The translations under genes and the position numbers were made by a program. 64,000 nt of DNA from Rhodothermales bacterium. Its GTDB lineage: Bacteria; Bacteroidota; Rhodothermia; Rhodothermales; VXPQ01. Within the stretch, counting starts at the first letter, position 1. Each line of letters opens with the position of its first letter. Shown one piece after another: positions 3,201 through 34,421 of this stretch. Under the pieces are notes generated by a model. It searched no databases. It was not told where the DNA came from and was given only the letters and a program-made list of their open reading frames with translations. The stretch covers positions 1-64,000 of the forward strand of contig JAJDWX010000038.1 in the NCBI GenBank assembly GCA_022825385.1, given 5' to 3'.

Positions 3201-3508
3201 GACCGCCCCTCTTGCGCCCGCTCCGGCTGGAATTGTTTATGGGCGCCGGAGTCACAGGCGATTCGCGAGAAAACATACGCCATGACAGAAAACACACCCT
3301 GATGGACGCAGGGCTGGGCGTCCGCTACGACCTGAACCGCCTGCGAGGATTCGACCGATGGATCAAACAGTCCGATGTATTGTCAGATCTTGCGCTCGTG
3401 GCGCGCTTTCCCTTGTGGGCCAACGATTACGAATATGCGGACACCGACAAGGCGTTCGCATTCCGCTGGGTATTCGGCGTCCAGCTGGACCGCCTTCCCT
3501 GGGACTAA
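281..3508 (+). CDS. M1 family metallopeptidase with C-terminal outer-membrane-barrel-like region
   Basis: Secreted zinc aminopeptidase of the gluzincin M1 family. A signal peptide covers residues 1-24. The zinc site is HEVAH at residues 370-374 with the third ligand E393, exactly the HExxH-18-E spacing of M1 enzymes. GGMEYP (345-350) stands where the family has its GxMEN substrate motif. Ordinary M1 enzymes end after the helical domain, but this 1075-residue protein continues from about residue 620 with alternating aromatic and polar strand-like sequence and ends VFGVQLDRLPWD, which resembles a beta-barrel. The catalytic part may therefore be tethered to the outer membrane. A His/Asp-rich insert lies at about 921-950. 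No Shine-Dalgarno is visible; ATG ATG gives two possible starts. The next gene begins 9 bases after the stop. The peptidase call is secure; the barrel is inferred. Confidence 0.93.
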   Translation: MMSFRYALLFALACLLPATSGQARQAAAPASSASRAGPNPAAQAPVVQYEMDVTVHPDRNAMEGRQRLAYANASPDTLSRVFYHLYFNAFQPHSMMAERNRALPDPDPRTAPRIFELGPEEIGYHRIESLAQDGEPVAHRAFDTVLEVTLARPLPPGGQTVFDMTFVSQIPLQTRRSGRDSREGIDYSMTQWYPKLAQYDARGWHADPYVGREFYAPFGTFDVRITLPAEYVVGATGTLLNPDEVGHGYASDSLDADAATPQADSLTWRFHAENVHDFAWSADPDYVHDVLETEAGYAIHLLYQPDVADTWATLHEAAPKIMAFFEARYGPYLYPQMTIAQGGDGGMEYPMITLVTGKRSPPSLHGVTAHEVAHMWFYGMIGSNEADHAWMDEGFTSYATREALAHIRGQPRPSHASATYSVLSLKRLGLFEPLNTPSDWFDTNAAYGVASYSGGEMMLDMLGYVISDSLRDRFLLEFHRQYTFRHAGPYDVERVAEQVSGIHLDWYFQQFGDLDWKLDYAIRRFRSHPHGPQWRASMTLERRGRAVMPIDLQITLEDGSSQWVHIPLGVMRGHKPVPDDWIVADPWPWTSPEYTLDVMLPVRARRAEIDPYLRTPESNRLDNVTGRGREYSFLQPPAPNIRRFDVGWRPLAHYAQHWGPGVGVQFRGAYTLTGETQKRAVTIWPQALFSGGEFPAVASRIAHVESPEFHALNGVDFDFSRSESYLKGYLIDWRSWTRKQLGIYQTGMEISFSDPENLLRKRSRRYAIGAKLVYPVNDRAKVRNTSSAWIQDTASIYGRMEGASDWYRYIAFGALGAAWNEELDGEDENRYSLNRMSMDFALGMPIGPLMGSVRVFLGTGDDDLSPDRRFRFGGVSVEEQWNHAGYRNVEALFEEPLADANWVAFGAPGPVAYMRQAEPYAEREQTDHDQKRHKDDTDRHDRHEAGHAKAEPFFLGSTGMLAFSARLLTPQLQGPPLLRPLRLELFMGAGVTGDSRENIRHDRKHTLMDAGLGVRYDLNRLRGFDRWIKQSDVLSDLALVARFPLWANDYEYADTDKAFAFRWVFGVQLDRLPWD

Positions 3509-30105: not shown

Positions 30106-30753
30106 CTATCGATACTCCTCGACGCAAAGCGTACGGGCGTACTCGGCCGCCTCCCGGGCGTCGTTGGTGGCCGCCACCACGATGGCGCCGCGGCGGACGC
30201 TGTTTTCGATAATAGAGGAGATGACGCGACGGCCTTCTTCGTCAAGATGTTCATTCGGCTCGTCCAAGAGGAGCAACGGCGGCTCGGCCAGCAGCGCCGC
30301 CGCCAGTTTGACGCGCTGCGTCATGCCGGAGGAAAACGTGGCGACCCGTTCATGCATGCGGCGCGCAAGCCCAACCGAGGCAAGCGCCGCTTCGATGCGC
30401 GCGCGCTGATCCCTCAGGCAGCGCGCCCGGGCAATGAATCGCAGGTTTTCCCAGGGAGAAAGTCCTGCGTATACATTCGCGTACGGCGCTACGAGCCCGG
30501 CATGCAGCGGGTGCGCCTCCTTCGACAAGGCGCTGCCGCGTACGCTGAGCGAGACGGTTCCTTCGCTTGGCGGCAGTACGCCGGCCAGCATCCGAAGCAA
30601 CGTGGACTTCCCGGACCCGTTCGCGCCGGTCACGGCCAGGCTGTCTCCGCCCGACAAGGCAATCGAAAGGTCCCTGAAAAGAAGCCGCCTCCCGAAACGG
30701 CGGGCCAGGCCGCATACGGTCACGACCGGCAAAGCGCTTGGGGATTGGGACAT
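30106..30753 (-). CDS. ABC transporter ATP-binding protein, CcmA-like
   Basis: A 215-residue ATPase: Walker A GANGSGKST, signature FSSGMTQRVKLAAALL, Walker B LLLLDEPNEHLD, and a C-terminal sensor histidine position replaced by Asn (AATND). The signature and shortness resemble CcmA, the ATPase of the haem exporter CcmAB of cytochrome c maturation, but no ccmB or other cytochrome biogenesis gene is adjacent, so the partner permease is elsewhere and the name ccmA is not assigned. It lies 87 bases after the AlbA_2 gene on the same strand. Confidence 0.87.
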   Translation of the reverse strand: MSQSPSALPVVTVCGLARRFGRRLLFRDLSIALSGGDSLAVTGANGSGKSTLLRMLAGVLPPSEGTVSLSVRGSALSKEAHPLHAGLVAPYANVYAGLSPWENLRFIARARCLRDQRARIEAALASVGLARRMHERVATFSSGMTQRVKLAAALLAEPPLLLLDEPNEHLDEEGRRVISSIIENSVRRGAIVVAATNDAREAAEYARTLCVEEYR

Positions 30754-30840
30754 GGCTTGGAAAAAGTTTCCGTAGATAGTACGAACGCCCTGGCAAGATA
30801 TTGCATAATTCCCGGTTTTGGGAAACGAGCGGAGGCGCGT

Positions 30841-32472
30841 TCACTTGAGACTGTCCTGTGCTTTGATCTTTTCAGCGAGCGCCTCGCCTTGAGCGGTTCG
30901 GCGGTACTGCTGCTTGCGGCTTTTCGGTTTATCCGGGAGCGTCATTTCGATCAGTCCGGCATGGAGGGCGGGGGCAAGGTATGCTTCCACGAAGTGGGAT
31001 CGGTTATTGATGCCCAGGATGTCCTGTAGCTGAGGACGGTTCATTTCCTCCGTAAGGAGCGCGATCAGGCGTTCAACATGTTGGGTTACATGTATGGTGT
31101 CATGTATGGTGTCATGTATGGTTCCTTGACCTTTTTCCTTATTTTTCAATGAGTTATCATGTATGGTGTCATGTGGAGTATCATGTATGGCGCCATCGTC
31201 GGTTGGCGCAAGAGAAGCCTGTTCATGGACCGGCAGCCGGACCAGAAACCAGGTTCGATCCTCGTCGCTCTCGAAAATCGGTTCCGGGGAGCCGTTCTGC
31301 CGCATGGCCCGAAAAATTTTCGGTACGCCGGTTGAGCGCGCCTCGGCAAGGTCGAGTTCTTTCAGGAATTCGCCAATACGCCGGTTCCGGTAGCGTCTGC
31401 TCACGGCCTGTCCCTCCTTGAAATCCTTCATACGGATGGAGCGGTCTGCACCGGGATAACTCAGAACCAGCAACTCTTCGCGCGTGATGCGAACTTCAAC
31501 CGGCTCCCGTTCCTCGTATGAACGATGGTATATGGCGTTCACCAGCGCCTCTTCAATAGCGCCGATGGGAAAATTCCAGAATCGCTCGGCCTCTGGCTTG
31601 TGGGGATACTTGACAACGGTTTCCTTCAGGTAATTCCGCGCAATGTAACTGATCGCCTCGCTGAGAATGATGGACAATGGGCCGCGAAACTCCTTCTCCT
31701 CGAACTGATCGCCGCCCGGCCCATCGGGAAACCACACGACATCGATCTGGGTGGACGGAAAAAACTTGTCCGGGCGCTCATTGAAAAACAGCAGGCCGAC
31801 GTTCTTCGGAAACATCGCTTCGGACGGGCCTCCGACGATATTCAGGCGCTTGCCCAGATCTTCAACAGACAGCCCCTTCGCTTCCGCCGCCAGTTCGCTG
31901 CCGATATTGCGTAGAAATTCTCGAATCAGCCGGTGCGAAAGGTCGTCAAGCGAAGCCGTCTGGCGATAACGGTCGTCAAAAGGCACGGTAGCCGCCAGAC
32001 TCAGCAGATCGCGCTCGTCCGGCCCCCTGGCGCGAACCGTGTTGCTGTGCCTGCGAATGAAGTAGGCCCAATCGTTGCGCTCCGCGCTAAGACTCGTTTT
32101 GGCTTTGTAAGGGCGGGTTTCGCCGCCAGGCACCCAAAGCGCCAGGATGGTCTGACCGCCAATATTGTAAATCCCTGTAAGCGGGTGATAATAGGGGCGA
32201 ATCGCCGAATAACCCAGATTCAGCAGTTCTTTGTGGATTGCGTCAATGGAATCGGGCGAGATGCCCTTGGGCGGCAGTACAGGGCGGCCTTCGCGTTCCT
32301 CGACGCCCAGGACTACGTAACCGCCACCGAGGTTGTGAAAGTCGTTGGCGAATGCACAAATCGTATGCAGGACGCTTTGCGGGTTCCAGCCCGCCTTGTA
32401 CTCGATGCGCTCGCCTTCGATGGTGCGCTGTCGCAGCAGGTGGTCGATATTTATGGGTAGCTTGCCGGTCAT
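30841..32472 (-). CDS. AlbA_2/Schlafen-type ATP-binding protein with HDTI repeats
   Basis: A 543-residue protein with an N-terminal AlbA_2 (Schlafen AlbA-like) domain (residues 1-150: EGERIEYKAGWNP, FANDFHNLGGGYVVLGVEE), a middle part with a HATPase-like region (GAIEEALVNAIYHRSYEERE, then VEVRITREELLVLSYPG), and a C-terminal winged-helix-like region. Between about residues 425 and 465 lies a tract of Thr-Ile-His-Asp tetrads encoded by 12-base repeats (listed separately). AlbA_2/ATPase proteins are usually called putative transcriptional regulators, and related ones occur in defence loci; this one's role is unknown. ATG 32472 chosen (MTGKLPINIDHLL); ATG 32493 is an alternative. Its codons look more AT-rich than the neighbourhood, hinting at transfer. 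Confidence 0.85.
   Translation of the reverse strand: MTGKLPINIDHLLRQRTIEGERIEYKAGWNPQSVLHTICAFANDFHNLGGGYVVLGVEEREGRPVLPPKGISPDSIDAIHKELLNLGYSAIRPYYHPLTGIYNIGGQTILALWVPGGETRPYKAKTSLSAERNDWAYFIRRHSNTVRARGPDERDLLSLAATVPFDDRYRQTASLDDLSHRLIREFLRNIGSELAAEAKGLSVEDLGKRLNIVGGPSEAMFPKNVGLLFFNERPDKFFPSTQIDVVWFPDGPGGDQFEEKEFRGPLSIILSEAISYIARNYLKETVVKYPHKPEAERFWNFPIGAIEEALVNAIYHRSYEEREPVEVRITREELLVLSYPGADRSIRMKDFKEGQAVSRRYRNRRIGEFLKELDLAEARSTGVPKIFRAMRQNGSPEPIFESDEDRTWFLVRLPVHEQASLAPTDDGAIHDTPHDTIHDNSLKNKEKGQGTIHDTIHDTIHVTQHVERLIALLTEEMNRPQLQDILGINNRSHFVEAYLAPALHAGLIEMTLPDKPKSRKQQYRRTAQGEALAEKIKAQDSLK
31089..31193 (-). repeat. 12-base tandem repeats coding (Thr-Ile-His-Asp)n
   Basis: Two clusters of three 12-base units each. 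On the plus strand they read CATGTATGGTGT with few changes: 31089-31100, 31101-31112, 31113-31124, then after a 33-base spacer 31158-31169, 31170-31181, 31182-31193. Because 12 is a multiple of three, gain or loss of a unit would keep the AlbA_2 gene in frame and just change the length of the HDTI tract. The tract joins the ATPase part to the C-terminal domain. Confidence 0.9.
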
Positions 32473-32521
32473 GCAACCAATATACGTTCTCATGAACTCA
32501 CAGAGAACCGGGACAACCCGT

Positions 32522-33220
32522 TTACTCTGCGTAGCGCGAAGCGTCGGTATCCGCCACAAGGTCGCAAAACACGAAGCGCTCCCGTTCGACTATTTTCCCG
32601 GTAGATACCGGAACCGGATGGCGAAAAATGGGCCCGTCGAACACGAATGTATGGAACTCGCCGTGCTCGCCGCATGGGTCTACCTCCGCCGGAAGATCCG
32701 CCAGAAAGGCCTCGTCGAACGGACGACCGGCAAACGAAACATCCAGAACCGCGGGGTTCACGCACGCCACGACGGCCCTGAATCCGTCCGCGACGAACCG
32801 GCGCGCGAGTGCTGCGGTGTCCCGGCGCCAGATCGGAAACAGGCATTCGAGCCCCTGCGCCGCCAGCTGCGCTTCGCGATAAACGCGCAAATCTTCAAGA
32901 AAGATGTCGCCGAAAGCCACGCGGCGGACGCCCTCGGCCTGCAATCGCGCAAAGGCACGACCCATTTCGCGCTCGTAAACATCATTGGACGAGCTGGGCG
33001 GAATGGCGACTTCGACGAGCGGAATGCCGATCGCGTCCGCCTGTCGCCGCGCAAGCGTACGGCGAACGCCGTGCATGGTTACCCGGTCGTACGGAACGGT
33101 TACGGTCGTCAGCAATTCCCCGACGACATACGTCCCGGCCCGACGAATCTCATGCAGCGCAAGCGCGCTATCCTTGCCCCCGCTAAAACACAGGGCGATG
33201 GATTCAAGGCTGTTATTCAT
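32522..33220 (-). CDS. DUF71 PP-loop ATPase (diphthine-ammonia-ligase-like)
   Basis: A 232-residue adenine-nucleotide alpha-hydrolase with the PP-loop CFSGGKDSALALHEI at the N-terminus and the DUF71 core (HGVRRTLARRQADAIGIPLVEV, AFGDIFLEDLRVYREAQL, GRPFDEAFLADLP, HGEFHTFVFDGPIF). In eukaryotes and archaea this family amidates diphthine on EF-2; bacteria lack diphthamide, so the bacterial substrate is unknown. Its ATG overlaps the hicA stop by 4 bases, so it is coupled to the toxin-antitoxin pair. The frame stays open upstream of this ATG but there overlaps hicA. Confidence 0.9.
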   Translation of the reverse strand: MNNSLESIALCFSGGKDSALALHEIRRAGTYVVGELLTTVTVPYDRVTMHGVRRTLARRQADAIGIPLVEVAIPPSSSNDVYEREMGRAFARLQAEGVRRVAFGDIFLEDLRVYREAQLAAQGLECLFPIWRRDTAALARRFVADGFRAVVACVNPAVLDVSFAGRPFDEAFLADLPAEVDPCGEHGEFHTFVFDGPIFRHPVPVSTGKIVERERFVFCDLVADTDASRYAE

Positions 33221-33435
33221 TCGAATGCAATGCGCGGCACGCCAGACTGACGAATAATCGAAAGCAGTGTCCCGACACGCAATTCCCGATGATTGGGAAC
33301 AGGCACGGTGCTGGTCGTATTTTCCTGAACCTTCTGCATCACGATATGGCTTCCGCGCCTTCGCACTTCCACAAATCCATGGGAAGCCAGTATCTTGCAC
33401 ACTTCCCGCCCCGACAAAACGCGCAACTTAGCCAA
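33217..33435 (-). CDS. hicA: HicA family mRNA interferase toxin
   Basis: A 72-residue toxin of the HicA family, a small double-stranded-RNA-binding fold that cuts mRNA. Seen: LRVLSGREVCKILASHGF and the catalytic histidine in RRRGSHIVMQK, then NHRELRVGTLLSIIRQSG. A TTG start at 33435 gives the usual opening M-A-K-L-R-V-L-S-G and overlaps the hicB stop; TTG 33441 is an alternative. Antitoxin precedes toxin, the reverse of the classical hicAB order but seen in many loci. Its stop overlaps the DUF71 gene start. Confidence 0.88.
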   Translation of the reverse strand: MAKLRVLSGREVCKILASHGFVEVRRRGSHIVMQKVQENTTSTVPVPNHRELRVGTLLSIIRQSGVPRIAFE

Positions 33436-33649
33436 CGGCAACCTCGACGCGGGTTATATATACTTCCGTACAAAGCCGTCGGTCTATTTCGCTTGCGGAA
33501 GCCGTCTCGAAGAAAAGCCCGAGTGCTTCCTGAAGATTTTCATGCGCTTCGGCGACGGTGCTTCCCTCGCTCGTGACATCTACTTCGGGACATAGCGCCA
33601 CATAGCCATCTCGCTCGCGTTCTATGATCGCAGTTAACTGTATGTTCAT
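33428..33649 (-). CDS. hicB: HicB family antitoxin
   Basis: A 73-residue partial-RNase-H-fold antitoxin. Family phrases: IIERERDGYVALCPEVDVTSEG and TVAEAHENLQEALGLFFET. No C-terminal DNA-binding (ribbon-helix-helix or HTH) domain follows, so this is the short HicB type and autoregulation would need another route. ATG 33649 chosen; a long upstream open frame exists but has no similarity to HicB. The stop lies inside hicA (8-base overlap). Confidence 0.88.
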   Translation of the reverse strand: MNIQLTAIIERERDGYVALCPEVDVTSEGSTVAEAHENLQEALGLFFETASASEIDRRLCTEVYITRVEVAVG

Positions 33650-33959: not shown

Positions 33960-34421
33960 TTATAACGCGCCGGCCTGCACGGCGTGATACTCCGAAATCA
34001 CGCCAGAAACCAGCGACCGGTATTCTGCGTCGGCCATGCCGCCAAGGTGCGCCACATGCCGCCTGGCTCGCCAGGAATCGATCGACCGCAGCGCTGCGAC
34101 CGCAAGACGCCGGTTCGATCTGGACTCGTCTTCCTCGGCTACTTCGGCAAGCGCCGCCGTCAGTTTGGGCAAGTCAACCCGATCAAAATCAAGCGTTGCA
34201 TACACGATCACATTCTTCAGGGTCTGGCTGCGAACCTGCGCATGCGGCGACTCGAGCGACGCGGCGATCTGCCTGGCGACCAACCCGTCAAGCCGCTCGG
34301 GGTTCGCAGAAGCATGGTCGTTCTGGGACCACGCAGGCGCAATCGGAACGAAACCGATCGCCAGCATGGGAACGAGCAGGAAAAGGGCTTTCAGTTTTGC
34401 GGAGACTACATGCATGTTCAT
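33960..34421 (-). CDS. Secreted HEAT-repeat-like protein
   Basis: A 153-residue protein with a signal peptide (residues 1-32, ending PAWSQ). The mature part is all helical: ARQIAASLESPHAQVRSQTL is a typical HEAT-like opening, and RRLAVAALRSIDSW a second helical repeat. Function unknown; such proteins usually mediate contacts. Its ATG is followed by a second in-frame ATG two codons on. The gene lies 146 bases after the PH-like membrane gene, with AT-rich sequence between. Confidence 0.6.
   Translation of the reverse strand: MNMHVVSAKLKALFLLVPMLAIGFVPIAPAWSQNDHASANPERLDGLVARQIAASLESPHAQVRSQTLKNVIVYATLDFDRVDLPKLTAALAEVAEEDESRSNRRLAVAALRSIDSWRARRHVAHLGGMADAEYRSLVSGVISEYHAVQAGAL

Follow-up and report, generated by a model that had tools for sequence, protein, structure and literature searches.

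This report concerns four adjacent genes in a Rhodothermales bacterium: a hicB-hicA toxin-antitoxin pair, a PP-loop gene of the DUF71 family, and a Schlafen-like gene with an AlbA_2 domain. They are found in the first 64,000 nucleotides of contig JAJDWX010000038.1 (assembly GCA_022825385.1), and this whole stretch is called the window. Very probably DUF71 is a resident gene, and the genes on its two sides are defence-type additions that are unrelated to each other. The locus would thus be a case of defence-gene turnover involving known kinds of genes, and not a module. Each of its parts can be compared with a described system.

Compact hicBA pairs of class 2 consist of a HicA of 60-85 amino acids and a HicB of 60-90 amino acids, and the class is described as being without experimental analysis (Gerdes 2024, PMC10865869). 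The window pair resembles this class: hicB lies upstream of hicA and overlaps it, the two proteins (73 and 72 amino acids) fall within the size ranges, and HicB has no recognisable DNA-binding domain. It is unlike the class in that the hicA stop overlaps the start of a resident DUF71 gene. The strings 'duf71', 'diphth', 'schlafen' and 'alba' do not occur in the main text of that paper.

Schlafen ribonucleases (RNases) fused to a minimal histidine kinase and a winged helix are described as closely linked to loci of the bacteriophage exclusion (BREX) type, in at least 1017 taxa (PMC12839542). That paper also cites a preprint on bacterial Schlafens that act against phages. The window AlbA_2 protein has the same three-part architecture, and its family is likewise found in defence-type company. 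Unlike the BREX-linked genes, it stands beside DUF71 and the ABC ATPase gene ccmA and is followed by a remnant of the type I restriction gene hsdM. No BREX-type protein is present among the ten proteins scanned at the window locus.

Within the DUF71 family, Dph6 carries the motif EGG[ED]xE, and the DUF71-B12 subgroup carries ENGE[FY]H, in which E188 is replaced by histidine (PMC3541065). The window protein shares the SGGKDS PP-loop motif and the E188 to histidine change with the DUF71-B12 subgroup. It differs in having histidine where ENGE has asparagine.

The four genes

All four open reading frames (ORFs) are intact and lie on the minus strand in the order hicB, hicA, DUF71, AlbA_2. hicB (33428-33649) encodes the compact antitoxin, and hicA (33217-33435), which has a TTG start, encodes a HicA toxin with a GSH motif. 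The two overlap by 8 nucleotides, counted from the TTG. The DUF71 gene (Diphthami_syn_2; 32522-33220, 232 amino acids) follows, its start sharing the bases ATGA with the hicA stop in a 4-nucleotide overlap. A 49-nucleotide leader (32473-32521) then separates it from AlbA_2 (30841-32472, 543 amino acids), which encodes an AlbA_2 domain, a histidine-kinase-like ATPase and a winged helix. The first-pass annotation of the window had described these genes with the same order, strand, overlaps and 49-nucleotide gap, and all of this was confirmed at the positions given.

Judged by spacing, transcription of all four genes as one unit is plausible. A scan for consensus promoters and terminators gave results at chance level.

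Comparison within the genus

Six genomes of the genus were searched with the window proteins as probes: the window genome (G000), a sister species (G001), and four further congeners (G002-G005). Five of them carry DUF71. G005, which is 87% complete and in 670 contigs, has no DUF71 match and was excluded from the locus comparison.

In all five species with the locus, the downstream neighbour of DUF71 is a ccmA-like ABC ATPase gene (30106-30753 in the window, minus strand). The upstream neighbour in G000, G001, G002 and G004 is u153 (33960-34421, minus strand), which has no Pfam match. Between these neighbours the species differ. In G001 the order is u153-hicB-hicA-DUF71-AlbA_2-ccmA-ComF, as in the window, and the spacing of the four genes is also the same. 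Because the sister species shares genes and spacing, the arrangement is not an accident of assembly or gene calling. In G004 the order is u153-DUF71-ccmA-ComF; the matched parts are 237 and 119 bp apart, and no gene is recognised between them. In G003 a Uma2 gene (E 1e-28) lies upstream of DUF71, giving Uma2-DUF71-ccmA-ComF. The G003 contig begins just before Uma2, and anything further upstream, including u153, is beyond its end. G002 shows about 50 codons of hicB, a Uma2 fragment, an intact DUF71, an AbrB-like ORF, a PIN toxin gene, two fragments of AlbA_2, and ccmA. At this locus (L062, 6508-8938) most of AlbA_2 is replaced by a VapBC-like pair, of which the AbrB-like ORF was recognised by eye and the PIN toxin by Pfam (E 6e-10).

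The adjacency of DUF71 and ccmA, allowing for such insertions, is thus constant in the five species with the locus. DUF71 and its backbone neighbours stay constant, and the gaps on both sides of DUF71 take up and lose toxin-antitoxin and defence-type genes. A whole-genome search finds this hicB only in G000, G001 and G002, and none in G003, G004 or G005. A backbone tree of five proteins places G000 and G001 apart from G002, G003 and G004.

At the upstream junction, G002, G003 and G004 have a common DUF71 start, CCTATGC[AC]TACCCG, preceded by a common leader. In G000 and G001 this start and leader are gone, and DUF71 begins at the ATG that lies in the overlap with the hicA stop. The end of hicA has taken the place of the DUF71 leader and start in these genomes and now supplies the start codon. 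The 3' end of DUF71 also differs in these two species, with a stop a few codons further on. On the downstream side, the AlbA_2 leader is present in G000, G001 and G002 and absent from G003 and G004.

Overlaps of the ATGA type are common between neighbouring bacterial genes. The overlap suggests that translation of DUF71 may now depend on translation of hicA. The coupling of the two genes had been proposed earlier; its overlap is real, but the junction is a derived one, confined to the window and its sister.

In the preferred explanation, the upstream addition would be a compact hicBA pair, in which HicB would restrain HicA until HicB is lost. The downstream addition would be a Schlafen-like gene stripped of its type I operon, and DUF71 would be a resident housekeeping enzyme between both additions.

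The hicBA pair

Toxins of the HicA family cut RNA and are restrained by HicB until HicB is lost. The window HicA matches Pfam HicA_toxin (PF07927) at E 5e-19, with 68.6 bits against a cut-off of 27. It contains the motif RRRGSH, and the GSH is aligned in the solved HicA structure 5yrz, a weak match (E 0.005).

HicB is recognised through annotated relatives. Its BLASTP identity is 41% to an annotated HicB encoded directly before an annotated HicA in a Leptospira pair, and 47% over 43 residues to the annotated HicB of a pair in Rippkaea. No Pfam family reaches its cut-off; PHD_like, at E 0.04, is far under its own. A single-sequence model of HicB, with a predicted local distance difference test (pLDDT) score of 71, has the order beta-beta-beta-alpha-(alpha)-beta. 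This order of strands and helices fits a partial RNase H fold, and the model has no Foldseek match at E 0.001 or better. From its predicted proteins and their arrangement, the window pair is assigned to the common compact class, class 2.

Relatives of hicA are found in six plasmid records, every one below 60% identity. A scan of viral contigs that finds close relatives only gave no relative of hicA or AlbA_2.

The Schlafen-like protein

The AlbA_2 protein matches three Pfam families in order: SLFN_AlbA_2 (E 1e-10), HATPase_c_4, and Fic-like_C. Its AlphaFold model, built with 72 sequences, has a pLDDT of 84. In Foldseek the model matches 3lmm at E 9e-17 over 429 columns, with a template modelling (TM) score of 0.37. 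It also matches the AlbA_2-type domain 2kyy (E 2e-5) and the Fic-family protein 4rgl (E 8e-4), the end of which carries the same C-terminal domain. Histidine kinases and MarR-type regulators, the latter being winged-helix matches, follow in further rows.

The RNase site of SLFN13 consists of E205, E210 and D248 (PMC5862951). In the window protein E19 and E24 have the same spacing of five as E205 and E210, and they are kept in 71 of the 72 alignment rows, the remaining row having a gap. Columns 58 and 59 hold aspartate or glutamate in 65 and 69 of the 72 rows; they lie near SLFN13 D248 by distance only, without an alignment to SLFN13. The ATPase residues E307, E308 and N312 do not vary in the same alignment. 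The AlbA_2 domain retains two RNase-site glutamates and has an acidic residue near the third position. By analogy with its family, the most likely activity of the protein is cleavage of tRNA or other RNA once infection is sensed through the ATPase and winged helix.

Alternately, the protein could be a transcription regulator, perhaps of its neighbours, with the AlbA_2 domain and the winged helix binding DNA. The AlbA_2 domain is termed DNA-binding in PMC6299218, and the best 50 of the 340 Foldseek rows include MarR-type winged helices and no Schlafen structure. A regulator would not be expected from the retention of the Schlafen catalytic glutamates or from the frequency of type I restriction genes beside AlbA_2 relatives, given below, and PMC12839542 describes proteins built in this way as Schlafen RNases. 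The regulator is therefore an unlikely alternative to the defence RNase.

Two arrays of 12-bp repeats (31089-31190, minus strand) encode an HDT-type linker, which sits before the winged helix; in relatives, other short repeats occupy this place. Compared with the window protein, that of G001 has 12 additional residues. Between G000 and G001 the ratio of nonsynonymous to synonymous substitution rates (dN/dS) is 0.22 for AlbA_2, which indicates purifying selection. The window genome (3.0 Mb) has 12 places that match AlbA_2, and those listed beyond the window's own cover only part of the protein. PADLOC gives AlbA_2 only partial matches to three Argonaute-type models, and gives HicB, HicA and DUF71 none. 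A plasmid search with AlbA_2 returned three records at E 1e-50, the best with 47% identity.

Origin from a type I restriction operon

Relatives of AlbA_2 were sought in 84,980 species genomes by short peptide patterns, a method that finds close relatives, and the best 80 of 121 loci were kept. One of these is G001. Flanks extend up to 8 kb, and some are much shorter. The alignment and tree hold the window protein and 71 of the 80 loci, the nine without a complete ORF of at least 480 amino acids being left out.

At least 24 of the 80 loci have type I restriction (hsd) genes no more than 3 kb from AlbA_2, a lower bound from tblastn with one query per family. Neighbours were also scanned by taking the first same-strand ORF of at least 100 amino acids among the two nearest per side, from greedy ORF calls and with other loci dropped. 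This gave 60 upstream and 59 downstream neighbours. Downstream are HSDR_N (11/59), HsdM_N (4/59), a TOTE-type primase (3/59) and PglZ (1/59). Upstream are Methylase_S (7/60), McrBC (3/60) and Fic (3/60).

In the tree, the window protein groups with those of G001, one Latescibacterota copy and two Gemmatimonadota copies (support 100/99). That group nests in a clade of 12 rows, of which seven are from Pseudomonadota (100/100). The end of AlbA_2 is informative across this clade. In L090, L091, L095 and L100 (four of the 12 rows), the AlbA_2 stop is overlapped by the ATG of an intact hsdM. In L088, L089 and L119 (three of the 12), the same position reads MNTAPIVSKV and ends after 10 or 11 codons, leaving a clear stump of hsdM. 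Degenerate but recognisable stumps are found in the window, G001 and L092-L094 (five of the 12 rows; L093 is not in the alignment). G002, which is outside the tree, has a clear stump that ends after 13 codons. The window stump (30815-30844, minus strand) has a start that overlaps the AlbA_2 stop and a far end that is uncertain. A strict script pattern matched five of 71 loci, namely L088 and the four with intact hsdM; the remaining stumps were identified by eye in the frames. The AlbA_2 ORF is complete in all 12 rows, but rows were selected for complete ORFs.

Because hsdM, intact or as a stump, overlaps the AlbA_2 stop in these relatives, the window gene descends from a type I restriction operon. 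It is 65-73% identical to the proteins of the four operons with intact hsdM, and its stop overlaps the same hsdM start position. Unlike those operons, the window locus has no hsdM save the degenerate stump. The genome's three HsdM_N matches are on other contigs (C38, C8 and C37, not C1); this search of the genome did not extend to hsdR and hsdS. Another restriction-operon gene, rloA of Campylobacter, presumably also encodes an AlbA_2 protein and is named here for comparison. It is part of a type I restriction operon (PMC2928727).

The window AlbA_2 is 88% identical to a copy in another phylum. The figure for five joined backbone proteins is 84-86% between the window and G002, G003 and G004. 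Copies 84-89% identical to the window's are found in metagenome-assembled genomes of Latescibacterota and Gemmatimonadota (L088, 3424-5028; L089, 1872-3476; L119, 8001-9617). A sulfatase gene lies downstream of AlbA_2 in all three, perhaps a sign that more than one gene was transferred between phyla. L089 has a full hsdM (341-1828) upstream of AlbA_2 and a stump of the hsdM start (3476-3505) downstream, an order unlike that of L090, L091, L095 and L100. Several relatives presumably come from marine sponges, to which the names of their genome bins point.

A more far-reaching proposal can be entertained only tentatively. AlbA_2 might be a one-gene mobile defence unit that is repeatedly cut from type I operons at almost the same position, the excised piece reaching from the AlbA_2 start to about hsdM codon 8-13, and that moves between phyla living in a common habitat. 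AlbA_2 and hicBA of the window lineage would then have settled on either side of a resident gene, and the pair, its toxin end having become the start of that gene, would be costly to lose. In a literature search on Schlafens with hsdM as orphans, no match among those listed contains the word Schlafen.

The DUF71 gene

The DUF71 protein matches Diphthami_syn_2, the former DUF71 family, at E 8e-34. Its motif GEHGEFHT has histidine at the position of the predicted catalytic E188 of Dph6, and it scores 87 bits against TIGR03679, for which the cut-off is 197. The motif and the score rule out the diphthine-ammonia ligase Dph6, that is, a diphthamide synthase. By its predicted protein, the gene is of a non-Dph6 type.

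The position and codon use of the gene resemble those of a resident gene, and it probably encodes a housekeeping PP-loop enzyme. Its dN/dS between G000 and G001 is 0.24. It may perhaps have a role in cobamide salvage. Neighbouring cobamide transport genes or cbiB would point to the DUF71-B12 subgroup. No cobamide-named family is present among the ten proteins scanned at the window locus. For 11 DUF71 loci of other genera, with 85 surrounding ORFs, none is found among the 25 Pfam families listed out of 106.

Composition

The GC content at third codon positions (GC3) is 0.51 in hicB, 0.58 in hicA, 0.65 in AlbA_2 and 0.695 in DUF71; nine other genes around the locus range from 0.69 to 0.77. By this measure hicBA stands clearly apart from DUF71, and AlbA_2 mildly so. 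A comparison of GC content and codon use had been suggested in the first-pass annotation; it separates the additions and leaves DUF71 near the local genes.

Between G000 and G001, hicA and hicB each show only about four differences, which is not enough to judge dN/dS. A lower synonymous divergence of hicBA (3/76 four-fold sites) and AlbA_2 (14/259) between these two genomes, compared with 124/1332, was considered as a further sign and set aside as too weak (Fisher p 0.15 and 0.04, uncorrected).

Alternative explanations

The first-pass annotation had suggested that the four genes may be a defence or stress module. Both hicBA and AlbA_2 are indeed defence-type genes. The proposal that all four form one functional module, acting and inherited together, is nevertheless highly improbable. 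It can draw on the like order and spacing in two species, on a third species in which DUF71 is surrounded by remains of hicB and AlbA_2, on the ATGA overlap, and on the joint presence or absence of hicBA and AlbA_2 in G000, G001, G002 and G004. It does not account for DUF71 remaining without the other three genes in G003 and G004, nor for the mere fragments beside DUF71 in G002.

Recurrence in other lineages speaks against a module as well. In an order sample of 99 genomes, DUF71 is found in 44 and a HicA match in 32, of which 27 are over the cut-off. HicA lies within 10 kb of DUF71 in only two of the 44 DUF71-bearing genomes, G000 and G001, and the next-nearest pair sharing a contig is separated by 29 kb (G048). 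The set is non-standard, as had been noted at the outset. In a phylum sample of 296 genomes (DUF71 in 83, HicA in 116), none of the HicA places listed, other than the window's, lies within 10 kb of DUF71. In the available flanks of 79 AlbA_2 loci of other lineages, hicA, hicB and DUF71 were all absent by tblastn, and a search with a profile built from five HicA sequences gave no match at E 1 or better. Relatives of AlbA_2 often stand with hsd genes, and none with a recognised hicBA. Many assemblies of the order sample are fragmented and some AlbA_2 loci have short flanks, so that neighbours can be missed.

A conserved four-gene module was accordingly rejected, for want of recurrence in unrelated lineages (two of 44 DUF71 genomes, both of one genus; none of 79 AlbA_2 loci). 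The same four-gene order, which a module should show elsewhere, is complete only in the window and its sister, and outside two or three species of one genus DUF71 and AlbA_2 occur in relatives without hicBA. Literature searches joining hicA or hicB, or toxin-antitoxin and anti-phage terms, with DUF71 or diphthamide gave no hicA-DUF71 link among the matches listed. A search on operon capture gave no match.

That the whole neighbourhood is a defence island, a single mobile element including DUF71, is scarcely credible, even though hicBA, AlbA_2, Uma2 and a PIN toxin occur at one place across related species and the GC3 of hicBA and AlbA_2 is lowered: u153, DUF71 and ccmA are collinear in G004 without those genes, DUF71 has a GC3 near the local value and a divergence like the backbone, the window has no tRNA and no Rfam match at gathering score, and no integrase is found among the ten locus proteins scanned, integrases not having been searched for elsewhere.

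Several observations weigh against the preferred explanation, a resident gene with two unrelated additions. hicBA and AlbA_2 are both present in G000 and G001 and, as fragments, in G002, and both are missing from G004; they may have been gained and lost jointly. At four-fold sites, the G002 fragments differ from G000 at 7/20 (hicB), 10/29 (longer AlbA_2 fragment) and 10/21 (shorter fragment), and the backbone at 421/1111. Divergence like that of the backbone fits one shared old gain with later loss. In G038 an AlbA_2-type protein of 21% identity lies 4.7 kb from DUF71, in a genome with ten such matches; besides G000-G002, this is the only DUF71-bearing genome with an AlbA_2-type match within 10 kb of DUF71. 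The window hsdM stump is weak taken alone, its likeness being seen through relatives. Finally, no Schlafen structure is among the best 50 of the 340 Foldseek rows for AlbA_2, and the best match has the TM score of 0.37 given above.

The history of AlbA_2 in G002 can be read in two ways. Each of the two G002 fragments resembles the copies in Latescibacterota and Gemmatimonadota no less closely than it does that of G000, and G002 may therefore have gained the gene separately. The leader and right junction of AlbA_2 are common to G002 and the window lineage, which favours one gain. The gene may thus stem from one old gain with later losses, or from separate gains out of a shared pool.

Significance

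A convincing four-gene operon can arise from unrelated genes placed side by side, and comparison of the locus among congeneric species settles such cases. The new details at this locus are an orphaned Schlafen-like gene with an hsdM stump, and the end of a toxin gene that has turned into the start of a resident gene.

What matters more than the operon question is that a Schlafen-like gene with no adjoining hsdM, but with an hsdM stump, is found in genomes of Rhodothermota, Latescibacterota and Gemmatimonadota. Together with a dN/dS of 0.22, the hsdM stumps suggest that bacterial Schlafens can work without the restriction enzymes they often stand beside.

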